A stretch of DNA of 32,220 bases, taken from positions 1 to 32,220 of the forward strand of contig CAMOIV010000007.1 of NCBI GenBank assembly GCA_946616305.1. Reading direction: 5' to 3'. Within the stretch, counting starts at the first letter, position 1; each line of letters opens with the position of its first letter. The notes beneath the pieces are model-generated. The model ran no database searches, was not told the DNA's origin, and was given only the letters and a program-made list of their open reading frames with translations. Positions 17,789 through 32,220 of the stretch are shown one piece after another. The translations under genes were made by a program, and so were the position numbers. This DNA comes from an uncultured Lachnospiraceae bacterium. Its GTDB lineage: Bacteria; Bacillota; Clostridia; Lachnospirales; Lachnospiraceae.

Positions 17789-19918
17789 TTATTCTTTCCC
17801 TGATCCCTCGGGTCCGAAGTAGCAAAGTCCCAGCATGGTGATATCGTCAAACTGCGGAGCGGTTCCCACGAATTCGTCTACGCTTACCTTGACATTATGA
17901 AGTATCTTCTTAGGCTCGGCACCGGGTTCCTTATTCAGAGCCTTCAGCATCCTGTCCGTACCGTACAGCTCTTCATTGGCATTTGTAGCCTCCGGGACAC
18001 CGTCGGTATATACGTAGAGGGAATCTCCGGGATGGATCTCAAAGGTATGCTCCCTGAAGGGAAGACCCTCCATGGTGGCAACAGCGGGAGAATGCTTGTA
18101 TACCACAAGCTCATACTCTCCTCCTGCCCTGCGGATCACGGGATGCTCATGTCCCGCATTTGCAGCGATACCCTTACCTGTCTTAAGGTTGATTATAGCC
18201 AGCCATACCGTAACAAAAAGTCCTGCTTCGTTTCCTTCGCAAAGCTGATCGTTCACGTTGGACAGTATCTCGGCAGGTGAGAAATCCGAGCTTGCCTGAG
18301 TATGGTTCTTTATAAGTGTCTTTGCTATCACCATGAACAGTGCCGCCGGCACACCCTTTCCAGACACATCGGCCATGACAAGGGCCAGATGATCCTCATC
18401 CGCAAGGAAGAAGTCGTAGAAGTCTCCTCCCACCTCCTTTGCGGGATTCATGGTGGCATATATATCGAATTCCTTGCGATCCGGGAAGGCCGGGAAAACT
18501 CTGGGCAGCATGTCTGCCTGTATCTGGGTTGCCACGGAGAGCTCGGCTCCGATACGCTCCTTCTCTGCCGTAACCTCCTCTATGTTCCTCACATATGCCT
18601 TAAGGTCATCCTGCATGTCGTTGAATCTGAGAGCCAGCTGTCCTACCTCATCATTTGATTCAACGGGTATCTTCTGATTGAAGTTACCTTTTCCTATCGC
18701 CTGAACGTTCTTGGAGAGCTTCTGTATAGGACGTGTGATGGTGCCCGATACAGCGAAGGATATCATGATGACTATGATACCTATGATGGCGAAATAGATC
18801 ATGAACAGCCTGTATATACCGAAGAGCTTCTCCTGCATTCCCTGCTGGGAGATCTCTGTAAGCTCGTCACTCTCCGTCTTTGCCTTCTCGGCAGGAGCCG
18901 TAACCTCGGCGGTCTCTATGCTTGCACAGAATATCCATCCCGTCTCGGGCATCCTTGCGAAAGCCACATAGCAGTTGTCACCGTCATATGTGGTCTCCAC
19001 GATACCTGAATCCTGGGATGCCAGAGCATTTATAAGCTTTGAATCCAGGAAATGATCCGCAAGATCCGGATCGAAGTCCTCGTCGCTCATATCCTGATGA
19101 GCTATGAAATTCTGATCGGCATCAAGCACGAAGCACGATCCGGTCTCACCTATCTTAAGACTCATGATCTCGTCTATGATGCTGGTAAGGAGCATGTCGG
19201 ATGCCACAACTCCCGCAAGCTTTCCGTTCTTATCCCTGTAGCTCATGGCTGCCGTGATGCAGGTCCTGCCGTAGGAATCCAGGTATGTAGGCAGCCAGAC
19301 CAGTGTATCGGGATTCTCCATAGCCGCTATATACCAGTCTCTGGTTCTGGGATCGTAATCCTCATTGTATTTATTGGATCTGGAGTATCTGTATGAGATA
19401 CCGCTCTCGGTACCGATATAGATGTTATGCAGATTCTCATTATTCTCAAGGAAGGGGGCAAATGAATACTCACAGTTTGAGAGTATATTGACCTCATTCA
19501 TGACAGCTTCCGTCTCCCTGACGCCCTTTACCAGGAAATATTTCTGGCATGCCACATCCATCTCGGTCTCATCGGGCTTGGGGATGGGTTTACCCACAAA
19601 ATTATCACTGTTTTCATACAGGCTCTGCGTAAACTGTGTTGACTCCGTAACAACCCTGTTCATGGAGTAGAACTCGGCATTGGCAGCCTGCGCCTGTTTT
19701 ATGACCAGTCTTTCCAGATAGTCCTCCGCCTGCGACAGGAGGGAATCCTTGGCCACGGCCGATGCATTGACTCCCAGTGTGATGTTTGTCTGCTGGAACT
19801 CATCCACCATGGAATTCATGAAATAATAGGATGCTCCGAATACCACCAGAAGCGACCCCAGCGCCATGATTATGATAACCAGGAGAATCTTGATACTGAT
19901 CTTCATGTTCTTAAACAT
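17789..19918 (-). CDS. dCache-HAMP-SpoIIE/PP2C-type sensory serine phosphatase
   Basis: Two TM segments, YDPRTRDWYIAA dCache motif, TRPIQKLSKNVQAIGKGNFNQKIPV HAMP, ELSVATQIQADMLPR...VGGDFYDFF...MADVSGKGVPAALFM RsbU/SpoIIE phosphatase. Confidence 0.95.
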   Translation of the reverse strand: MFKNMKISIKILLVIIIMALGSLLVVFGASYYFMNSMVDEFQQTNITLGVNASAVAKDSLLSQAEDYLERLVIKQAQAANAEFYSMNRVVTESTQFTQSLYENSDNFVGKPIPKPDETEMDVACQKYFLVKGVRETEAVMNEVNILSNCEYSFAPFLENNENLHNIYIGTESGISYRYSRSNKYNEDYDPRTRDWYIAAMENPDTLVWLPTYLDSYGRTCITAAMSYRDKNGKLAGVVASDMLLTSIIDEIMSLKIGETGSCFVLDADQNFIAHQDMSDEDFDPDLADHFLDSKLINALASQDSGIVETTYDGDNCYVAFARMPETGWIFCASIETAEVTAPAEKAKTESDELTEISQQGMQEKLFGIYRLFMIYFAIIGIIVIMISFAVSGTITRPIQKLSKNVQAIGKGNFNQKIPVESNDEVGQLALRFNDMQDDLKAYVRNIEEVTAEKERIGAELSVATQIQADMLPRVFPAFPDRKEFDIYATMNPAKEVGGDFYDFFLADEDHLALVMADVSGKGVPAALFMVIAKTLIKNHTQASSDFSPAEILSNVNDQLCEGNEAGLFVTVWLAIINLKTGKGIAANAGHEHPVIRRAGGEYELVVYKHSPAVATMEGLPFREHTFEIHPGDSLYVYTDGVPEATNANEELYGTDRMLKALNKEPGAEPKKILHNVKVSVDEFVGTAPQFDDITMLGLCYFGPEGSGKE

Positions 19919-20865: not shown

Positions 20866-22815
20866 TCAGTATAACTCCTTTCGTTTCACAGATCCGCCTA
20901 TGACAATGCTTGATGCCATAAATACCACCGCCATTATCGCAAAGGCTATGGCAAGAGCTCTTATGCCTGCCTGATAGCCAAGTATTATGACAGAGGCAAA
21001 TACAAACGGTCCGGTCATTTCCAGGATCTTCTTGACAAATGAAAGCACCGATAATGATTTGGAATCTCCCAGTTTCTTTATGGCAGGCAGTGACAGGAAG
21101 TAGTTGTTCTGTACTCCGAATCCTACACTGTCTGCGGTACCGAGTAATGCAGCCCCCAGGAAGGGAAGCAGCAGTCCTGCGCCAAGTCCCGGCAGGAAGA
21201 GACTGACTGAGATCAGTATGTTATATACAAAATTCAGGTTTTTCAATGCCTTGCCCTTGAATCTGGCAATAAGTACGGACAGGAAAGGTCCCGCATATAC
21301 TATAACGATACCGTAGAGCAGCTGAGCTCTACCCACATCGGTGACACTCCTTCCGATATCCTCAAAATACAGGGGCAGATAATAATTCTTGTATGATGCG
21401 GCTATGCTTGCCGGAGCTATCATGAGAAGTACGAATAGGACTGCCAGTACAGCCTGACCAACATTCATCCTGACCTGATCCGGATCATCCTTCTTTTCAG
21501 GCTTGGGCTCTGTACGAGGCATTATCGCATTCTCCATGCTTATGATGAATAAGGACGTGAGCACGGTCATCACGGCAGAGATCATGAATACAGTCTTATA
21601 TCCGAAAATGTCGGCAAGAATAGCTCCCAGAGAGGATCCGCAGTTCATACCGGCATAAAGTCCCGCATTGAGAAGGGCAAAGCCCAGCAGTCTCTCTCTG
21701 TCATCCTTTGTAAACAGCGAAAGATTCCTCAAGGTCATCCAGCAGAAGCCGTATCCGAGACCGACTATTGCCCTTGCAAGGATGAACATCACCAGATTGA
21801 CGGAAACAGCGGAAGCAAAGGTACCTGCCGCCACAAGCAGCAGTCCGGCTATGAAGGGCAGCTTCCATCCCTTCTTCTCAAGCAGCAGGGTCGTCAGGAA
21901 TATGGCTGCACAGGTAAGCAGCGTCTCTGCCGACTGGGGAAGTCCCGCAGCCGCAGCATCCGACATCCCCGGGAAGGGATTCATAAGTGATTTTGCCATG
22001 GTAGGGATAAAGGCTCCCGAAAGCCTTGATGAAAAATAGAATATAAAGGCTATCTGACGGATATAGTACAATGACGTCAGCATCTTATCGTTCGTTTCCA
22101 CTCTGTTATCGATATATGCGCTGCTCACCGCAACCTGAACCAGCCGTCTCGATATCACCCTGATCATCATCAGAACCATCTCAACGGAAAAGAACATGGA
22201 TGTTACAAGGACCGTCAGCAGGTTCAGTATTATGGCACGCAGCTGATCGTTCACAAATGATTTGTCAACGACAAAACGTATCTCCTTATCCTGCCTGAAC
22301 ACGTATGAATATACCGTATCCTCCATCTTCTGTCCTACCTTCGACTCATCCGATGAGTAGAGAACAGTGCCATCGGCATCGACTACGGATATCTCGGCTA
22401 TACCGTCAACCTGCAGCTCGGACAGTTTGTCATTAAGGTGCTCCTCATCGCACTGTTCGGCTATGGATATGTCTCTTCTTATGTTGGAATAGGTTTGATA
22501 GTTGAGTGTCTGATTCCTTACGGAAATGATCTCAAAGAAGAACGAGACCTGTATGATGATGAGCAGCGTAAGAAGCATGGCGTTTATATTGGCACTCTCC
22601 AGTTCCCCGTAGATGTTGAAAACAGGGCCCTTTGCATAGAAAGCAGCCAGAGCTATGCATGCTATGACAGTCAGTATGATAAGAACATTAAAGGGAACCG
22701 CCGTGTATTCCTTGGGCTCGTTTATGTTCAGTATTATGAGAAAAGCGGCAACCAGTACTATGGTCAGTACCGAACCGATAAAGAGATAAAGCCTTGTTTT
22801 TTTTGCACTATTCAC
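20866..22815 (-). CDS. MFS transporter with N-terminal extracytoplasmic sensor-like (Cache-like) region
   Basis: 649 aa; GTG start; N-terminal TMs, then a soluble segment ...EISVVDADGTVLYSSDESKVGQKMEDTVYSYVF..., then 12-TM MFS core. Confidence 0.8.
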   Translation of the reverse strand: MNSAKKTRLYLFIGSVLTIVLVAAFLIILNINEPKEYTAVPFNVLIILTVIACIALAAFYAKGPVFNIYGELESANINAMLLTLLIIIQVSFFFEIISVRNQTLNYQTYSNIRRDISIAEQCDEEHLNDKLSELQVDGIAEISVVDADGTVLYSSDESKVGQKMEDTVYSYVFRQDKEIRFVVDKSFVNDQLRAIILNLLTVLVTSMFFSVEMVLMMIRVISRRLVQVAVSSAYIDNRVETNDKMLTSLYYIRQIAFIFYFSSRLSGAFIPTMAKSLMNPFPGMSDAAAAGLPQSAETLLTCAAIFLTTLLLEKKGWKLPFIAGLLLVAAGTFASAVSVNLVMFILARAIVGLGYGFCWMTLRNLSLFTKDDRERLLGFALLNAGLYAGMNCGSSLGAILADIFGYKTVFMISAVMTVLTSLFIISMENAIMPRTEPKPEKKDDPDQVRMNVGQAVLAVLFVLLMIAPASIAASYKNYYLPLYFEDIGRSVTDVGRAQLLYGIVIVYAGPFLSVLIARFKGKALKNLNFVYNILISVSLFLPGLGAGLLLPFLGAALLGTADSVGFGVQNNYFLSLPAIKKLGDSKSLSVLSFVKKILEMTGPFVFASVIILGYQAGIRALAIAFAIMAVVFMASSIVIGGSVKRKELY

Positions 22816-23003: not shown

Positions 23004-23573
23004 TTAAAAACTCTCTATCCGAAAGACCGATGCCTTTGTTGCGTGAGCAGCCTCAAGCCCTACTTTGGAGTCTTCAAATATGACCGTATGATCCTCATCC
23101 ACGCCGAAATCCCTCATGGCAAGATAAAAGATCTCAGGATCGGGCTTAAAATGACTCACGTCCTCCTGGGCATATATCCTTTCTATATGATCATACAGTC
23201 CGAAATGCTTAAGAATGGCCTCAACATTGACCCTTGTGGCAGTTGTGGCCACTACCATGTGGTAGGTATCGTGACAGGAAAAGATAAAATCCTTAAGAGT
23301 CTGATTGACCTGTCCCATATCAAAGCACTTAAGATACATCTCCAGCTTCCTGTCATGTACTTTTTTAACGAGAGCCTGGTCGCCGCCTAAGACCTCCGGC
23401 AGAAAATCCCTGTAGTTCTTCCCGAAGCAGTGGTCTCTGTAGAATTCAAGGGTGAACTCAAGCCCAACCTCCTCCATGGCGATCCTGTATGACTCGTAAT
23501 TGATCATCAGGGTATCTATAAGGGTCCCGTCAAGATCAAATATCGCAAGTCTGTCCTTCATCTTATGGCTCAT
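23004..23573 (-). CDS. HAD-superfamily phosphatase (beta-phosphoglucomutase-like)
   Basis: FDLDGTLIDT, VATTAT, HFKPDPEIFYLAM, VIFEDSKVGLEAA; ATGA overlap with upstream gene. Confidence 0.93.
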   Translation of the reverse strand: MSHKMKDRLAIFDLDGTLIDTLMINYESYRIAMEEVGLEFTLEFYRDHCFGKNYRDFLPEVLGGDQALVKKVHDRKLEMYLKCFDMGQVNQTLKDFIFSCHDTYHMVVATTATRVNVEAILKHFGLYDHIERIYAQEDVSHFKPDPEIFYLAMRDFGVDEDHTVIFEDSKVGLEAAHATKASVFRIESF

Positions 23574-26500
23574 CCCTTCTCATCCGCGGAAATCCCCTCG
23601 ACGCCTTCCGATCTGCCGGCATCCTTGCCGGAATCCTTATCGTTGTCTACGGTTTTCCCGCTGTTATCTCCGGCATCCTTATCCTTGTCCTTGCCGGAAT
23701 CCTTATCGTTATCTACGGCTTTCCCATTGCTGTTTTCGGCATCCTGGCCGGCTTCTTTATCAACATCCCTGCCGTTTTCTCCGTTTTTATTGCTGCTATC
23801 ATCGGCATCCTTACCGGTACCCTTGCCGCTATCGGATGAAGGCTCCTCCGTATCCGGTCTGTTGATAGTCACTTCCGTAATGACCGTCTTGCCCTCAAGC
23901 TTTGCATTAAGCTTCTTTTCGGTCTCGATAAACTCCTCCGGGGTACCGAAGGATTCATATTCGTCAACATCAAATACCTTGATGGACAGCCCCTTCTTTA
24001 TGAGGACATTATATATGCCGCTCATGTAGAATTCATCATAGGGACAGTTCTTTATGTATTCCTTCGCTGCCTCAAGGAATTCTGCAGCATTTGAGAATCC
24101 GTAAGCGCCGGCGATGGCATGATCGCTTATCACCTTCTTCTCTGCTGTTTCCTTCGCATATCCGTTATCATCCGTCTTGACATAGCTGTACTTATCAAGA
24201 TCGGACTTGAATGTCAGCAATGTGCCGTCTGCACCGAAAGCTCCCGTATTATAGTAATCATACATTTTCTCGGATGTGAACAGGAGGTCACAGTCCATGA
24301 ATATGACGGGATTATCATTCTTTATGGTCTTAGCACCCTCCATGGCTGTAAGCAGAGCTCCCGGAAGCACCTTATCAAGCTGCACGATCTTTGCTGCCGG
24401 ATAGTATTCACGTATCCTCTTATCTATCTCATATTTTTCAACATGCTCTTTCAGCACGACAAAGACCATCCTGCCCACCTTTACATGGCCCAGAAGGGAA
24501 TCCACGGCCCATACGAAGAAGGGCTCTCCCGCCATCTTTATGAGCGGCTTGGGCATATCGTATCCGTCCTTTAAGAATCTGGTACCTGCTCCTGCCATGG
24601 GGAATACGATATTTATCCTTGCATTCTCCTTTTCCTTCTCTTTTAACCTCTTCTCCTCTTCGACGACCTTCTGTTCAAGCTTGTTCTTTCTCTTCTCGGA
24701 TCTGGCGGTTATCTTTGCTCTCGTTCTGTCAAGCAGCAGATAGAAGGTAGGCAGCAGGATTAGCGTCAGCAGAGTCGATGCACTCAGTCCGCCTACGAGC
24801 ACGCCTGCCATACCCTGCATCGCCATGGCATCCTTGGACCATCCAAGCGATACCGGTATCATGGCCATGACCGTAGTCATGGTCGTCATCAATATGGGAC
24901 GCAGTCTTCCGGATCCCGCATCCACCAATGCCTCTACGGTATCCATTCCTTTCTTCTGGTTCTGTATGGCCATGTCTATCAATATGATACCGTTATTGAC
25001 CACTATACCCGAGAGCATCAGTATACCCATGAGGGAGACCATCGAGATCTTGATGTTCATTATAAGAAGGAAAAGGATGGCTCCTATACCTGAAAACGGG
25101 ATACACAGCATTATGAGGATCGCATCGGCGATGGACTCAAACTGTACAGCCATGACAAAGAACACCAGGAATATGGCGATGAATATGGCCATTCCCAGGG
25201 CGGAGAACTCCTCTTCCATCATCTTGGACACAGTATCATCCAGGAAGCCCACATCCGGATCCATCTCCATATCGTCTATCTTTTCGTGGAGCTTCTCGGC
25301 TACCTCATCCCTGGTGGCGGCCGTCATTGTCGCCTTGACAAAATCCACATACAGACCGTCCTGCCTGTATACAGCCTGAGGCGCCGACACGAACTTAACA
25401 CTTCCGACTTCACTCAGCGGGACGGAAACACCCTTCGAGTTTGTAAAAGTCATAGAGGCAACGTCGCTGACATCCTTGAAATAATCCTCGGGGTATCTGA
25501 CGTTCACCTCATACTTCTTATTGTCTATGGTCACCTCACAGGCCTTCTTACCTGACATATTCGCATATACAAGACCTGCAAGCTGCTGCGGAGAGAAGCC
25601 TCTGGCAGTGGCCAGCACGGGATCGATCTCCACCATGGCCTTGGTTCCCGTTTCATTGTAATTGGAATTTGCATACAGAACCCCGTCGGTATCCTCCATG
25701 ATCTCTATGATCTTGTTGGAGGTTTCTTTGAGCTTGTCCAGATCTGCACTGGTGATATCAAATTCCTCGGTACTCACTGCAGACATGGATCCCATTCCCA
25801 TGGTGGATCCCGTCGATACATTGATCTCGCATATGTTGGAAAACCCTTTCAGTTTTTCATTCCACTCATCAACCAGCTGCTGAGTGGTATATGAAGAGTC
25901 CTCCTTTTTATAGGCACTGATCGTGGCAAGGGAATCCGATCTATCCTCTATCGTGGAGAAGCTCTTGACATCATCGTACCCTTTTACAAACTCTTCTACC
26001 TGTCTGACGGTACCGTCCATTGCTTCAAGAGAAAGATTGGGTCTGAATGTTATGGAGATATTGGCTATGCCTTCATCAGTTCCGCTGAAAAGCTCAGTCT
26101 TAAGGAAGGTTGCCAGATAACCGGTGAATACAAGCAGAGCGATGGCCACTACAAATACTGTTTTCTTCCATTTCAGCGCGAAACGGAGTACTTTCCTGTA
26201 AACCTTGGATAATTTCTTGAGTATCCTGTTAGTGATGATCTCACGCTTCTCTACGGGTTTATATATGGAAAAGCATAACGGTATCAAGGTAATGGCGGAT
26301 ATCAGGGATGACAGCAAGGCAAAGATGATGGTGGAGCCCAAAGGCTTAAACATCTGACCTGACAACCCCTTCATGACGGCAAGAGGAAGATAAACGACCA
26401 TAGTGGTAAGAGTCGAGCCTATTACCGCATTTATGACTATAGTGGTACCCTCGTATGCCGCCTCTTTAAAAGACAGTCCCGCCTGGTGCCGCCTGAAACA

Positions 26501-27721
26501 CATCTCTATCACAACGACGGCATTATCCGTCATCATTCCTATGGCGATGATCAGGGCTGCCATGGTGATGATATCCAGGGCAAATCCTGCCATATGCATA
26601 CATATGACAGTCGCCATAATGGATACGGGCATGGTACTGCCCACTATCAGGGATCCCTTCAGGTCTCCGAAAAAGATGAATATGATGAACATGGCAAGGA
26701 AGATAGCCTCCACCATGGTCTTTCCGACGCCCTTCAGTGTACTTATGATGGTATCGGCCATATCCTCGACGACTACGATATTAAGCTCCGGATACTTTTC
26801 CCTAAGCTTCTCCAATACCGGTTTCAACTGTCTTGACAGAGTAACCGAGGATGCAGACTGCTTTCTCTTGATACCTATGCTGACATTGCTCTCGCCCATG
26901 TACCTGGACATGGATGTTTTATCTGATACTGCATACTGTACCGTGGCGATATCATTCAGATGGATCGTCTGACCTTTGGATGTCGAGATGGGAACCTGCT
27001 CCAGTTTGGGAAGCGTATCGTATTTCACCTCCGAAGCAAGCTGCAGTACCTGATCGCCGTAATCGGCGGTTCCGGCGGGCATTGAGAAGTTTGCAGCTGC
27101 AATCGCATTTGCTATAGCCGTAAGATCCAGACCGTACTGATAAAGGTATTCGGGCATTACCTGTATCCTGATATATTTTTCATCTCCTCCGGAGACATTG
27201 GTCTGGGCAAGTGTACTGACCTTCTTAAGTTCCGGTATCACGTATTGATTGACCTCTGCCAGCACGTCCACGTTCTCACTGTTGCCGGTGACAGACAAGG
27301 TCACATCATCGATGGCTGAAGTATCTATCTCAAGTACCGTAGGCTCCTTTATATCGGTGGGCAGCTGCGGTCTTATCCCGTCAACAGCCTCCCTCACGTC
27401 ATTATATGCGTCATGCATATCCTTGCCGTACTCGTACTGGAGTATGACATAGCTCATGCCCTCATAGGACTCGCACATGACCGCTTTGATCCCCGAGATG
27501 GACTCTACCGCGCTGCTGATCTTGTCACTCACAAGCTCATCAACTTCCTCCGGAGTCGCTCCGGGATATATGGTATAGACAGCCATGATGGGGATCGACA
27601 TATCAGGCATCATCTTGAGTGTGATGCTTGACATGGATGTTATAAAGAATACCACCAATGCGATGATGGTCACTATGACTGTTACAGGTCTGTTAAGGAT
27701 CTCCCTTACAAGTCCCTTCAT
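23570..27721 (-). CDS. RND (HAE1-type) efflux permease fused at C-terminus to a nucleotidyltransferase domain and a charged repetitive tail
   Basis: 1383 aa continuous ORF; RND core (VTVIVTIIALVVFFITSMSSITLKMMPDMSIPIM...SGIVVNNGIILIDMAIQ) then EEEKRLKEKEKENARINIVFPMAGAGTRFLKDGYDMPKPLIKMAGEPFFVWAVDSLLG (NTP transferase signature). Confidence 0.93.
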   Translation of the reverse strand: MKGLVREILNRPVTVIVTIIALVVFFITSMSSITLKMMPDMSIPIMAVYTIYPGATPEEVDELVSDKISSAVESISGIKAVMCESYEGMSYVILQYEYGKDMHDAYNDVREAVDGIRPQLPTDIKEPTVLEIDTSAIDDVTLSVTGNSENVDVLAEVNQYVIPELKKVSTLAQTNVSGGDEKYIRIQVMPEYLYQYGLDLTAIANAIAAANFSMPAGTADYGDQVLQLASEVKYDTLPKLEQVPISTSKGQTIHLNDIATVQYAVSDKTSMSRYMGESNVSIGIKRKQSASSVTLSRQLKPVLEKLREKYPELNIVVVEDMADTIISTLKGVGKTMVEAIFLAMFIIFIFFGDLKGSLIVGSTMPVSIMATVICMHMAGFALDIITMAALIIAIGMMTDNAVVVIEMCFRRHQAGLSFKEAAYEGTTIVINAVIGSTLTTMVVYLPLAVMKGLSGQMFKPLGSTIIFALLSSLISAITLIPLCFSIYKPVEKREIITNRILKKLSKVYRKVLRFALKWKKTVFVVAIALLVFTGYLATFLKTELFSGTDEGIANISITFRPNLSLEAMDGTVRQVEEFVKGYDDVKSFSTIEDRSDSLATISAYKKEDSSYTTQQLVDEWNEKLKGFSNICEINVSTGSTMGMGSMSAVSTEEFDITSADLDKLKETSNKIIEIMEDTDGVLYANSNYNETGTKAMVEIDPVLATARGFSPQQLAGLVYANMSGKKACEVTIDNKKYEVNVRYPEDYFKDVSDVASMTFTNSKGVSVPLSEVGSVKFVSAPQAVYRQDGLYVDFVKATMTAATRDEVAEKLHEKIDDMEMDPDVGFLDDTVSKMMEEEFSALGMAIFIAIFLVFFVMAVQFESIADAILIMLCIPFSGIGAILFLLIMNIKISMVSLMGILMLSGIVVNNGIILIDMAIQNQKKGMDTVEALVDAGSGRLRPILMTTMTTVMAMIPVSLGWSKDAMAMQGMAGVLVGGLSASTLLTLILLPTFYLLLDRTRAKITARSEKRKNKLEQKVVEEEKRLKEKEKENARINIVFPMAGAGTRFLKDGYDMPKPLIKMAGEPFFVWAVDSLLGHVKVGRMVFVVLKEHVEKYEIDKRIREYYPAAKIVQLDKVLPGALLTAMEGAKTIKNDNPVIFMDCDLLFTSEKMYDYYNTGAFGADGTLLTFKSDLDKYSYVKTDDNGYAKETAEKKVISDHAIAGAYGFSNAAEFLEAAKEYIKNCPYDEFYMSGIYNVLIKKGLSIKVFDVDEYESFGTPEEFIETEKKLNAKLEGKTVITEVTINRPDTEEPSSDSGKGTGKDADDSSNKNGENGRDVDKEAGQDAENSNGKAVDNDKDSGKDKDKDAGDNSGKTVDNDKDSGKDAGRSEGVEGISADEKG
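23625..23747. repeat. Imperfect 66-bp-period direct repeat encoding a Lys/Asp/Gly-rich tail
   Basis: ttgccggaatccttatcgttgtctacggttttcccgctgttatctccggcatcctt (23625-23680) vs ttgccggaatccttatcgttatctacggctttcccattgctgttttcggcatcctgg (23691-23747). Confidence 0.8.
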
Positions 27722-29442
27722 TTAATCTCCTTCATTTCGTTCTTCTTCTCAGGCTTTATCTTCATCCCGTCCTTCAGGCTGCTGGCCCAGCTTAAGATGA
27801 CCTCGTCACTGTTGGTAAGTCCCGATACGATCTCGATATTGTCGCTGTCGGATATTCCGGCTTCGACATCCGTACGCTTTGCAACACCATTGTCATTGAC
27901 ATATACATATGCCTGATCCAAGTCGTAATATACGGCATCGATAGGCACCGTCATTGCATTTAAAGCAGATCTGGTAGCAGTCGATATGGAAACCGAAGAA
28001 CCTGCTATAAGATCCGATGCATCCGAAAGCACAGTGGCCTCTACCTTGAAAAGCCCCGTATTGGGATCTATGGTATCACCGACGGTAAGAAGCTTTGCCT
28101 TATAGTCTTTGCCGTTCTTGTTTACCAAAGCCTCTGCCCCGGGATAGAGGTTTGCTGCTGTCTGCTCTGCCACATAGAATACTATCTTGCATGGCGCATC
28201 ACTCTGGATGGTATACGCTGTTGACTGCTGACTGGCCATATTATGGAGCGATACATTGATAGCCGTGATGGTCCCGCTGACAGGAGCATTCACGACGGTA
28301 TGATCCAGCTGCAGCTTTGCCTGATCAAGTCCGGCCTGAGCGGTTTTTACAGCCGATGCGGCAGTTGTTACGCTGGATTCCGCACCTACGGCCTGTGCGT
28401 ATGCTCCGTACAGAGTCGTCGGCACGGTGTATGTGTTGTAATTATCTCTCTTCATCTCGGCGAGTCCGTAGGAACTCTGTGTCGCATAATACTGAGCTTC
28501 GGCAGAATCCGCCGTGTATTCGGCGCCCTTTTTCTTTGCATCAAGGGTTCCCAGGGCACCTTCCTGAGTAGCTATGCTGGTATTAATGGTATCAAGGTCG
28601 TCCTTTGCCGAATCAACAGCCAATCTAAAGGACTCCTCCGCGGACTCTCCAACATATCCGTGATCGGAAAGCCATGCCTGCTTCTGCGCCTCATCAGTGA
28701 TGCTGTTGAATTGCGCAAGTTCACTCTGCATCTCATCGTTCTTTGCGATGGCTCCCTCTCTCTGCGATCTCAGGGAATCAAGTGAAGCCTGAGTATTATT
28801 GATATCCTTTTGAAGCTCGGAAACATTGAGATTTGCTGATTTTAATGAGTCGTTGGCAGATCTTTTCTGCGCATATGCCAGATCCACGGCATTGTTCATT
28901 GCCGCTGCATTGTAGGGGATCTCTCCAACCGTCTGAGTTGCCTGAGCCTTTGTCGCATTTGCGGTTGCAGACTGTGCGTTAAGGGATGCCTTTGCGCTGG
29001 TGACCGAAGCCTCAGCCTGATTGACGGCTATCTGGAGTGCCGTATCATCTATCCTGAATAACAGATCGCCCTCATTTACATGATCACCGACCTCGAAATT
29101 CTTCTCAACGACCTCTCCTGCCACCATGGGAACAACCTGTACCTCACTCTCGGCCGTTACCGTTCCGGAGAAATTCGAACTTACGGAGATATCCTTGACA
29201 AAGGGTGTCGACACCTCAACGGGTATTATCTCCTCAGCACTGTTTTTGCTTGTACTCTCTTCGGCGTTATTCCCGCTGATGAATCTTCCTTTTATCTCAT
29301 CTATCTGCGTGCATCCGTTGAGAAAAAGGGAGGTGATGCATACGATCATCCCCGCCGTTTTCAAAAACCCACTATGACGTCTTCTCACAATGATGTCCTC
29401 TCGCGCTGTATACTTCTTGTTAGTTGGACTGTTACTGATCAC
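27718..29442 (-). CDS. Membrane fusion protein (HlyD/AcrA-type adaptor), lipoprotein
   Basis: Lipobox LFLNGC; biotinyl-lipoyl-like VVEKNFEVGDHVNEGDLLFRIDD, coiled coil, LDHTVVNAPVSGTITAI. GTG at 29388 is a plausible alternative start. Confidence 0.92.
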   Translation of the reverse strand: MISNSPTNKKYTAREDIIVRRRHSGFLKTAGMIVCITSLFLNGCTQIDEIKGRFISGNNAEESTSKNSAEEIIPVEVSTPFVKDISVSSNFSGTVTAESEVQVVPMVAGEVVEKNFEVGDHVNEGDLLFRIDDTALQIAVNQAEASVTSAKASLNAQSATANATKAQATQTVGEIPYNAAAMNNAVDLAYAQKRSANDSLKSANLNVSELQKDINNTQASLDSLRSQREGAIAKNDEMQSELAQFNSITDEAQKQAWLSDHGYVGESAEESFRLAVDSAKDDLDTINTSIATQEGALGTLDAKKKGAEYTADSAEAQYYATQSSYGLAEMKRDNYNTYTVPTTLYGAYAQAVGAESSVTTAASAVKTAQAGLDQAKLQLDHTVVNAPVSGTITAINVSLHNMASQQSTAYTIQSDAPCKIVFYVAEQTAANLYPGAEALVNKNGKDYKAKLLTVGDTIDPNTGLFKVEATVLSDASDLIAGSSVSISTATRSALNAMTVPIDAVYYDLDQAYVYVNDNGVAKRTDVEAGISDSDNIEIVSGLTNSDEVILSWASSLKDGMKIKPEKKNEMKEIK

Positions 29443-29443
29443 A

Positions 29444-29457
29444 GGGAAACACTTCCC
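29444..29457. promoter_or_regulatory. Short inverted repeat downstream of predicted TSS (possible operator or hairpin)
   Basis: gggaa acac ttccc. Confidence 0.35.
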
Positions 29458-29479
29458 CGTTTACATAAACAACATATGG

Positions 29480-29507
29480 ATTATATCAGAGATATGGCAT
29501 TTGTCAA
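29480..29507 (-). promoter_or_regulatory. Consensus SigA-type promoter for the MFP-RND-NTase-HAD operon
   Basis: Minus strand TTGACA - 16 bp - TATAAT; the -35 overlaps the stop codon of the upstream gene. Confidence 0.75.
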
Positions 29508-31381
29508 TTAACGAGACTGTCGGCACATAAAAGCATTCCGGCAAAAAAGATGACCGCCCTGTCCTGATCCTGCTCTATCTTATACGGCATCAGACGAAGC
29601 CAGTTTATGATCTCATGTGAATAAATGCTTTTCACCTCATCCTCTGTATATCTCTCCCTTATATGAGCATCAAAAGCCTTGTGCAGTTCCCTGTATGCAT
29701 CTGACATACCGGATATGAAGGAGATCTCGTTTCCCGAAACCCTGCACCTTTCGGTACGCATGAGGAATTCATAGCCTCCGTGTATGGACTGCAGTATCTT
29801 AGCTATATCGATAAACTTGGAATCCAGGATATTGCCTGTATTGGGATCGATCAGATAATATCCCTTTTCGCTGACGTAGGGAGGCACTGTTATGATGTTC
29901 TCCACCGTCACATCCCCGTGTATCCTCGATATCTTATCATCTGCAAATATCCGAAGCAGCCTGTCCTTATCCATTAACTTAAGGAGATGCTTCATACCGG
30001 CCACCCTCCTGCCGTTGATCACAAGCTCGTCATATCTTGCCAGTTCATTGATCTCATGACAGGCCCAAAGCTTCTCTATATTGGCTGCAACCTTTTCGTC
30101 TATGTATCTTTCGATCACTGCCCTTTCCGGCTTTCTTGTATCGAGAACGTAGAGATTCTCCTCAAGATCCGACAATACTCTCTTAAGTATCTCCAGGGAC
30201 TGCTCCACGGGATTGGTATGGATGTATTCGAAAAAGCCCGTAGCACCCGTCACTGACGGCATGTCATAAAGGCTCATGTTGTCTTCCCTGCGCATGAATA
30301 TGATCTCCGGCAGAGGCAGCACTTCCCTGTTTGCTCTGATCCAGTCCATCTGATCCTTCAGCTTTTCAGCTCCCGCTCCTATGACATATTTGCGAAATAC
30401 CGTCTGGCCGTTCCTGATAGCAAGAAGTGTTGTCGCATCAGAGCCTGCAGAATGATCGCTTATTATCTGTATGTCGCTGTTAGCCTCCAGATATCCTCTG
30501 ACATAAGCGCTTCTGTCCCCTTCGAAATAGTTTTCGAGAAAAGCTCTCCTGTCCGACTCGTGAAGCTGAGGCAGCAGCATCAATGTCTGCTCCGGCTTAT
30601 CCTTCAGGCTCTCTCTGCTTCCCGCAACGCCGTATACCATAAGGATCAGAGATGAGAGCACATGATACATGGTGATCCATAATGTACCCTTTGCTATGGT
30701 TCCGGTATCCATGGAGGAGCTTGAGAACAGCAGGGAGAATATACTCATGAGCGAGGTCTCTACTCCGTTCATGGTAAGGGTCAGAGACAAAAGATAATAG
30801 GATGCTATGTAGAGTCCCCACATAAGCATGGTCATGAAGGCGAGCCTGCTCTTCTTTATCTTGACTGCTATATCCCTGAAGGCCGTGATTATGGACCAGA
30901 AGAAGAACATGAGCTTCAGCTCTATCCTCTCGTTGAATATGCCGGTAAAAAGACGGATGCCCTTCTTCACTCCCCTCTTCATAAGAGTCACACAGGCAAT
31001 GGCCAGGATCGCCGCCGCGGAAAGTATGATATAGAATATGGCAGATTCCCTGACATCCGTATTGGATGCGGGATTCGACAGATACAGGATGAGATATATC
31101 ATCCCTACTACTATGATATCAAGTATCCTGTCCACTACAACCGTGGCGAAAGCAAAAGAAAAGCCGTTCTTCATCTTCCGCCCAAGGATGAAGGATCGCA
31201 AAAGATCGCCCAGTCTGAAGGGCAGTATGAGGTTAACGAGATAAGAAGCTGCAAGTCCCTTGGCAAACTCGGGAAGCTCAACCTCCTCGTATATGTCAGA
31301 GAACTGCTTCTGCCTCATTGATTTCACAACATGTCCCGCTACTATGAGTCCTATGGACAGGATAAACAATGCGTAGATCAT
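29504..31381 (-). CDS. LPG_synthase_TM/UPF0104 flippase-like membrane domain fused to an APH-like kinase/phosphotransferase domain
   Basis: N-terminus ...AASYLVNLILPFRLGDLLRSFILGRKMKNG...VVDRILDIIVVG; C-terminus ISRIHGDVTVENIITVPP...YYLIDPNTGN (HGDxxxxN and IDP motifs). Confidence 0.85.
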   Translation of the reverse strand: MIYALFILSIGLIVAGHVVKSMRQKQFSDIYEEVELPEFAKGLAASYLVNLILPFRLGDLLRSFILGRKMKNGFSFAFATVVVDRILDIIVVGMIYLILYLSNPASNTDVRESAIFYIILSAAAILAIACVTLMKRGVKKGIRLFTGIFNERIELKLMFFFWSIITAFRDIAVKIKKSRLAFMTMLMWGLYIASYYLLSLTLTMNGVETSLMSIFSLLFSSSSMDTGTIAKGTLWITMYHVLSSLILMVYGVAGSRESLKDKPEQTLMLLPQLHESDRRAFLENYFEGDRSAYVRGYLEANSDIQIISDHSAGSDATTLLAIRNGQTVFRKYVIGAGAEKLKDQMDWIRANREVLPLPEIIFMRREDNMSLYDMPSVTGATGFFEYIHTNPVEQSLEILKRVLSDLEENLYVLDTRKPERAVIERYIDEKVAANIEKLWACHEINELARYDELVINGRRVAGMKHLLKLMDKDRLLRIFADDKISRIHGDVTVENIITVPPYVSEKGYYLIDPNTGNILDSKFIDIAKILQSIHGGYEFLMRTERCRVSGNEISFISGMSDAYRELHKAFDAHIRERYTEDEVKSIYSHEIINWLRLMPYKIEQDQDRAVIFFAGMLLCADSLVN

Positions 31382-31696
31382 TCAGTCCGATACCTCAGAA
31401 AAATCATCATCCTCTATCCTATCATTTATCTCACGCAATTCAAACTCCTCTTCGCTCCGGTCAAGAGTCCTCAGCATATTGAGAAGCTTTGATGCATATT
31501 CCCGGCCCTCCATCACATCGGCATGCTCTATGGTGATGCTTACGGGATACATCTCGCCAAGCATATCATGCAGGGCATCAAGATTGGATCCGTAATAGTC
31601 CGCAAGTCCTAAAACCTCTTTAATATATGCATGTGCCTGCTCCCTGCCTTGCATCTTTCTTCCGTCAAGGGTAAATGACCTTATATTATCCCTCAT
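31382..31696 (-). CDS. Barstar-family ribonuclease inhibitor
   Basis: 104 aa; FTLDGRKMQGREQAHAYIKEVLGLADYYGSNLDALHDMLGE...PVSITIEHADV matches barstar fold motif. Confidence 0.92.
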   Translation of the reverse strand: MRDNIRSFTLDGRKMQGREQAHAYIKEVLGLADYYGSNLDALHDMLGEMYPVSITIEHADVMEGREYASKLLNMLRTLDRSEEEFELREINDRIEDDDFSEVSD

Positions 31697-32220
31697 TTTG
31701 CAACCACCTCGTCCTCACCGTTTACCGTGTATTCGGTAAAGGTATCATAATGATCCTCAGTATAAAAATACAGTCCGTCGTCGGAATAAACAAGCCTTTT
31801 CGGTCCCCGGCTTCCCTTGCCGTCCGTGTCGATATCGCATTCGAAATACTTCCGGCCCTTCTTATCCGGCAGAGTTCCTTCATAATTACTGAACCTGTCT
31901 CCGCCGATGGCTGCACCTTCTATATACTTCTGTACACTGCCGCCCTCCCAGCCTAAGGCTCTGGCGGCTTTCTTCGTCACATAATTGTCCGGGAGCTCAC
32001 CGTAGGTCTCAAGGTAGAGGATCACATGATCGAGGTCATAATAAAACTCCCCTTCCCTTACATAGTCTGAGGTATCGAACCCGATTTCGTCTGCGGCGTC
32101 GGTCTTGACCTCTTCTCCGGCGTCGGTCTTGACTTCGTCTGCAGCATCGATCCCGGCTTCGTCTGCGGCGTCGGCCTTGACTTCGTCTGCAGCATCGATC
32201 CCGACTTCGTCTGCGGCGTC
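31693..32220 (-). CDS. Barnase-family ribonuclease with acidic repetitive N-terminal spacer; N-terminus beyond window edge
   Basis: Frame open to 32220: (DAADEVGI DAADEVKA DAADEAGI DAADEVKT DAGEEVKT DAADEIGF) then YYDLDHVILYLETYGELPDNYVTKKAARALGWEGG...RKYFECDIDT...KRLVYSDDGLYFYTEDHYDTFTEY. Confidence 0.93.
   Translation of the reverse strand, partial: DAADEVGIDAADEVKADAADEAGIDAADEVKTDAGEEVKTDAADEIGFDTSDYVREGEFYYDLDHVILYLETYGELPDNYVTKKAARALGWEGGSVQKYIEGAAIGGDRFSNYEGTLPDKKGRKYFECDIDTDGKGSRGPKRLVYSDDGLYFYTEDHYDTFTEYTVNGEDEVVAK
32077..32220. repeat. 24-bp tandem repeats (6 copies visible, continuing off-window)
   Basis: 8-aa unit DAADEVxx x6 in the barnase reading frame. Confidence 0.9.

Follow-up and report, generated by a model that had tools for sequence, protein, structure and literature searches.

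The locus analysed here raises the question of why an RND efflux permease should carry a nucleotidyltransferase (NTase) at its C terminus and be encoded together with a HAD phosphatase and a kinase that is itself joined to a flippase-like domain. The window (the whole 32,220-nucleotide stretch of DNA that was analysed) is the whole of one contig from an uncultured Lachnospiraceae bacterium, the parent assembly of which comprises 2.0 Mb and is 84.5% complete. Among its named relatives are the cultured isolate AC3007 and Lachnospiraceae that have not been cultured, most of them from the rumen. An earlier note, made from the sequence alone, had correctly guessed the family Lachnospiraceae and had read the locus as a membrane-bound system that activates, flips and exports an envelope unit. 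The four ORFs and the domains on which that reading was built were all present. They lie on the minus strand and encode, in transcription order, a flippase-kinase (625 aa; 29504 to 31381), an RND adaptor of the membrane fusion protein (MFP) type (574 aa; 27718 to 29442), the RND-NTase fusion (1383 aa; 23570 to 27721) and the HAD phosphatase (189 aa; 23004 to 23573). The last junctions had been described as 4-bp ATGA overlaps, and both were found on the minus strand, between adaptor and permease (27718 to 27721) and between fusion and HAD (23570 to 23573). At the former junction, the relatives L060 to L067 also have a 4-bp overlap.

Domain content of the locus

The N-terminal part of the flippase-kinase (residues 1 to 256; 30614 to 31381, minus strand) was assigned to the flippase-like membrane domain LPG_synthase_TM by a Pfam match over residues 6 to 215 (PF03706; E value of 2.5e-14 and score of 53.9 bits at a cut-off of 33.4) and by a helical model; its score against TIGR00374 was below the cut-off (23.2 against 43.2 bits). 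The kinase half (residues ~290 to 625; 29504 to 30513, minus strand) gave no Pfam match, and none of the curated kinase family models reached its cut-off with this domain. PDB profile searches with the whole protein and with the kinase domain alone retrieved no related chain; thus, the assignment as an APH-fold small-molecule kinase rests on the predicted fold and the motifs. The predicted fold matched that of glucosamine kinase (6hwl) with a Z score of 19.6 over 300 residues (rmsd of 4.8), and the motifs K331, H488-G-D490, N495 and D512 were invariant in 15 of 15 aligned sequences, so that the fold, the HGDxxxxN motif and the catalytic Asp of this family are all in place. Since Pfam does not detect this kinase, annotation can easily overlook the module. 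An identity with MprF was rejected, because Pfam gives no C-terminal aminoacyl-phosphatidylglycerol synthase domain, and an APH-fold kinase stands there instead.

The adaptor was recognized by TIGR01730 (194 bits against a cut-off of 94.9) and has a lipobox-like LNGC motif, the Cys of which is visible by eye in the orthologues too. The permease of the HAE type (residues 1 to 1010; 24692 to 27721, minus strand) is a full-length member of its superfamily, matching ACR_tran (PF00873) over residues 8 to 997 with 614.8 bits at a cut-off of 28. It is followed on the same strand by a charged, coiled-coil-like linker (24620 to 24691), which in sequence comparison resembles the cytosolic tail of unfused orthologues, by the NTase domain (residues 1035 to 1276; 23894 to 24619) and by a charged low-complexity tail (23570 to 23893). 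Most relatives have similar tails of varying length.

An AlphaFold2 model of the NTase, built with an alignment of relatives, reached a pLDDT of 92.9. The structure that it matched best was 4evw from Vibrio cholerae, which bears the name nucleoside-diphosphate-sugar pyrophosphorylase (Z score of 27.4, 226 residues, rmsd of 2.0, 29% identity), with GalU, GlmU and RmlA next in the ranking. The sequence-profile search also retrieved 4evw (E value of 3.6e-24). Together with the motifs GxGT/SR...PKP and DCD, the RmlA/GalU-like fold identifies the domain as a sugar-phosphate NTase, although no curated NTase family model reached its cut-off. Further proteins with NTase domains were observed: a frame with two NTase domains of the window kind (L120:3429-5174), which like G416:C18 belongs to frames of 581 to 600 aa, and, in another genus of the family, a 502-aa protein that combines an NTP_transferase and an APH domain and adjoins a LicD gene (L097:8345-9853).

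The last gene product is a HAD phosphatase of the beta-PGM/YqaB-like type (PF13419; E value of 1.8e-26) with the motifs DLDGT, KPDP and EDS retained. It scored above the cut-off of TIGR01509, which places it in subfamily IA, and below that of the equivalog bPGM model (69.2 against 189.4 bits). Copies with 66 to 69% identity were found in G237 and G204. The gene lies directly behind the fusion in the window and possibly in G237, and most sister species have it elsewhere. The HAD tree was poorly resolved, so that orthology of the window type to the HADs of the kinase/NTase/HAD trio could not be separated from orthology to the copies beside a rhamnose operon. A second HAD type (L103, L101, L106 and L108) was observed between the genes of a polytopic membrane protein and an Aldolase_II, beside a rhamnose-catabolism operon; the same Aldolase_II, 90 to 93% identical, lies downstream of the trio in L042.

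These profiles bear on two known pathways. In a Lic1-type (LicA/LicC) phosphoalcohol decoration, a small alcohol or amine would be the substrate of the kinase, and its CDP derivative would be the product of the NTase. Choline kinases do belong to the APH fold, and LicA (4r78) matched the predicted kinase fold with a Z score of 16.2. However, the NTase profile favours sugar-1-phosphate NTases, with LicC (1jyk) far down the list at an E value of 0.088, no LicD was identified among the scanned part of the trio neighbours, and the HAD and the sugar-epimerase or phosphoglucomutase (PGM) neighbours point to sugars; we regard such a decoration as decidedly unlikely. The earlier note had compared the enzymes to AmgK/MurU/MupP, which are drawn from the same three superfamilies. 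Taken as an identity, this comparison was rejected by the family cut-offs for MurU and MupP and by the PDB profile ranks: the NTase scored 14.9 bits against the MurU model NF045761 (cut-off of 250), the MurU structure 4y7t ranked far down the list (E value of 0.78), and the HAD scored 23.9 bits against the MupP model NF009696 (cut-off of 359). MurNAc recycling of this kind is highly improbable.

The surroundings of the locus were inspected as well. Directly upstream of the flippase-kinase gene (31382 to 32220), the window encodes a barstar together with an RNase of the barnase type, which has DAADEV-like repeats and a frame that is open at the contig end. Possibly, the two represent a polymorphic toxin-immunity pair; in relatives, their position is held by PNPase. 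Downstream of the HAD follow an MFS protein of 649 aa that has a Cache-like sensor at its N terminus (20866 to 22815) and a Cache-HAMP-SpoIIE phosphatase (17789 to 19918), flanking a D-Ala-D-Ala-ligase-like gene in one same-strand run. Most of the clade with the fusion (L060 to L067) has a GGDEF protein gene downstream of the RND-NTase gene.

Distribution and origin of the RND-NTase fusion

The query protein had a match in 46 of the 48 genus genomes. Within the genus, the fused frame of 1383 aa is found again at 59 to 73% identity, also on a contig of isolate AC3007. In about a dozen genomes, the RND frame continues into the NTase, or else it is truncated by the end of the contig and its neighbours fit the arrangement. 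The whole order of flippase-kinase, adaptor and fusion was found in six genomes besides the window (G079, G205, G206, G211, G227 and G242), and further genomes show parts of it at contig ends. In the fused clade, contigs of G204, G213, G217, G232, G236 and G237 break off at MFP, RND or HAD. The remaining genomes mostly have adaptor and permease alone and a separate NTase. Conservation of the neighbourhood in relatives had been named in the earlier note as a test of its finding, and with recurrence of this gene order in about a dozen species the finding survives. An assembly artefact or chimeric ORF was ruled out by the occurrence of the fusion in MAGs that are independent of each other and in an isolate. 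Beyond the genus, no RND-NTase fusion was present among the NTase matches in 397 genomes of the family and 391 genomes of the class, and the long RND frames that were found in other searching lacked the NTase part.

In the phylogenetic trees, the fused RNDs formed one clade with 100/100 support. The fused NTases likewise formed one clade, which included a second NTase of G237. This genome has the RND-NTase frame on one contig, and the second NTase, followed by HAD and GGDEF genes, on another contig, which begins with this NTase. This copy may be a truncated fusion. The sister group of the fused NTases consists of NTases that adjoin flippase and kinase genes, and the NTases that adjoin radical SAM genes form a separate group. 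Judged from these sequence trees, the fusion is of single origin.

The insertion site is suggested by a shared neighbour. PNPase lies upstream of separate flippase, kinase and NTase genes in G223 and G214 and upstream of the complete fused order in others (e.g., G079, G205, G206 and G227). On the simplest reading, adaptor and permease genes would have been inserted at the PNPase site between kinase and NTase, and the frames would have been joined via the already existing charged tail of the pump. The flippase and kinase genes of G223 and G214 are of a distant type, different from the flippase-kinase of the window; therefore, that pair must in addition have been replaced. The pump was added to the enzyme module later, since most of the genus has an unfused orthologue of it, and three near-complete genomes without the NTase and the associated family 2 glycosyltransferase (GT2) have kept the pump.

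The single origin, the resemblance of the linker to an existing cytosolic tail of the pump and the independent occurrence of pump and NTase elsewhere in the genus would also fit a chance event, in which the NTase frame ran into the RND frame and was kept only since separation costs NTase expression, with neither a shared function nor a benefit from tethering. However, no clear reversal to separate genes was seen inside the fused clade (with the second NTase of G237 at a contig edge), and the kinase-flippase stays at the same locus. We consider pure chance possible but rather unlikely.

Enzyme operons without a pump and the wall-polysaccharide locus

The earlier note had treated kinase, NTase and HAD as one toolkit. 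This was corroborated outside the genus, where three further genera of the family and one other family have the enzymes in a tight, pump-free operon beside a GT2. Operons of the order NTase, flippase-kinase, HAD, with overlapping or abutting genes, were found in G315, G271 and G508, each with a related GT2 upstream (46 to 52% identical among themselves); in G315, a Wzx-type polysaccharide transporter lies nearby. In G322, NTase, kinase and HAD genes are located downstream of an epimerase gene, again with no pump. The fusion of kinase and flippase-like domain is not special to the locus, because it occurs in three distant operons as well. Inside the genus, G231 and G226 have the flippase-kinase, NTase and HAD and no pump. 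Among the 48 genomes of the genus, 11 have both the flippase-kinase and a close HAD, 3 only the flippase-kinase and 1 only the HAD (Fisher P value of 1.8e-7, with relatedness ignored). Taken together, the NTase/flippase-kinase/HAD operon beside a GT2 is a recurrent module, apparently uncharacterised, that would activate units for clostridial surface glycans. Evidence against this reading comes from the stand-alone NTases of most genus members, which adjoin a radical SAM gene and not the kinase. The arrangement of stand-alone NTase followed by a radical SAM/SPASM gene was seen in L044 to L058.

The GT2 links the module to the wall-polysaccharide locus. An orthologue of the GT2 of the distant operons (51 to 58% identical) is present in 40 of the 48 genomes of the genus, the one of the window's own genome being on G000:C20. 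The locus around it is conserved and also contains a Bac_transf, which is the initiating sugar transferase, several GT2s, a GT87 and PGM, and in some genomes LytR-CpsA-Psr. The GT2 itself is weakly similar to undecaprenyl-phosphate Ara4FN transferase (E value of 1e-4). In at least five species (G200, G201, G218, G230 and G244), the GT2 gene is directly followed by genes of the LPG_synthase_TM and APH types, in most cases with short overlaps. No such genes follow the GT2 in the fused clade or in G223 and G214, where flippase and kinase genes are found with the NTase elsewhere. Since pump-free operons lie beside a GT2, and flippase and kinase genes follow the GT2 in the wall locus, the module most likely activates a sugar-like unit. 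The presence of the NTase follows that of the GT2 (P value of 1.6e-4, with relatedness ignored): of the near-complete genomes of the genus, 17 have both, 3 have neither and 2 have the GT2 only. Two observations count against the link. The flippase and kinase of the wall locus are no more than remote relatives of the flippase-kinase (best APH profile E value of ~1e-10), and G203 has the GT2 but lacks an NTase of the window kind.

The role of the pump was judged from the same genomes. The near-complete genomes G222, G225 and G228 keep the RND pump without NTase and GT2, which argues for a pump that is separate from the pathway. This is at odds with an activate-flip-export machine, in which the RND pump would export the product of the fused NTase and the kinase, either a glycolipid or an NDP-activated compound. 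Such a machine would explain why gene order and in-frame fusion have been kept in about a dozen species at 59 to 73% identity and why most genomes of the fused clade are without a close unfused second copy of the pump. However, the enzyme operon occurs without a pump in the other genera, the other family and two members of the genus, and fused permease and unfused orthologues share the same motifs (TDNAVVV and VVNNGI). We consider export by the pump unlikely. The more elaborate version is quite unlikely; here, an RND pump that carries its own NDP-sugar-type synthase would work with a kinase-flippase as one membrane machine, so that the making, flipping and extruding of an envelope unit would be coupled physically. 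Export by the pump and chance fusion partly overlap with the reading that we prefer, because the role of the pump is the sole point of difference. Of the three steps proposed in the earlier note, activation is therefore supported and flipping is plausible, but export by the pump is unsupported and unlikely, given that the enzyme operon exists without a pump and that most of the genus, including genomes with neither NTase nor GT2, has the orthologous pump in unfused form.

Proposed pathway and comparison with known systems

We favour, with a probability of roughly 60%, a model in which kinase-flippase, NTase and HAD activate a sugar-like (or polyol) unit for a surface or wall glycan and the pump keeps its efflux role. 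The kinase would phosphorylate a sugar-like building block, and the NTase would convert the resulting phosphate ester into an NDP-activated donor. The HAD would remove a phosphate before the kinase step or control the pool. The GT2, encoded elsewhere in the genome, would load the activated unit, perhaps onto polyprenyl phosphate; the LPG_synthase_TM domain would flip the lipid-linked unit in an MprF-like manner, and membrane glycosyltransferases would use it outside. In one clade, a generic MFP-RND efflux operon would have come to lie between the kinase-flippase and NTase genes, followed by fusion of the RND and NTase frames. The fusion would tether the NTase at the membrane and place it under the expression of the pump, which most likely retains an efflux role of its own. 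A point against this is that the fusion was kept in about a dozen species, which may mean that the pump takes part in the pathway. The domains, the pump-free operons, the single origin of the fusion and its linkage to the wall-polysaccharide locus were observed, and substrates, direction of flipping and benefit of the fusion are what we infer. The model implies that a drug-type pump would be physically linked to the synthesis of a cell-wall glycan precursor in Gram-positive rumen bacteria, and the cultured isolate AC3007 makes the system testable.

In a limited literature search, which constitutes weak evidence, no pertinent report of an RND fused to a nucleotidyltransferase or of Lic-like loci was found, nor was a flippase-kinase/NTase/HAD operon found described. 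Each part belongs to a known superfamily. The logic of kinase, NTase and phosphatase is known from AmgK/MurU/MupP muropeptide recycling (PMC5371407). The same APH kinase, NTase and HAD superfamilies are used there, but the window proteins are far below the family cut-offs, and the annotated loci contain no muropeptide genes. MprF, which acts as a scramblase (PMC11980842), likewise combines an LPG_synthase_TM membrane domain with a C-terminal enzyme domain; this is a lipid aminoacyltransferase in MprF and an APH-fold kinase in the window protein. HAE-type RND efflux pumps with a lipoprotein adaptor share the permease and adaptor domains, the operon order and the conserved transmembrane motifs; unlike them, the window permease carries a C-terminal NTase, which among the genomes searched is confined to one clade of one genus. 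Sugar-1-phosphate NTases of the RmlA/GalU/GlmU fold, with 4evw as the nearest solved structure, have the fold of the whole domain in common with the window NTase, which differs in scoring below all curated family cut-offs and in being fused to an RND pump. Three-component membrane glycosylation employs a GtrA flippase, a GtrB-type GT2 and a GT-C. In the loci described here, a GT2 is likewise accompanied by a small protein that resembles a flippase and by a polytopic membrane protein of the GT87 or GT-C-like type; however, LPG_synthase_TM takes the place of GtrA, and kinase, NTase and HAD are added, with roles that we infer.
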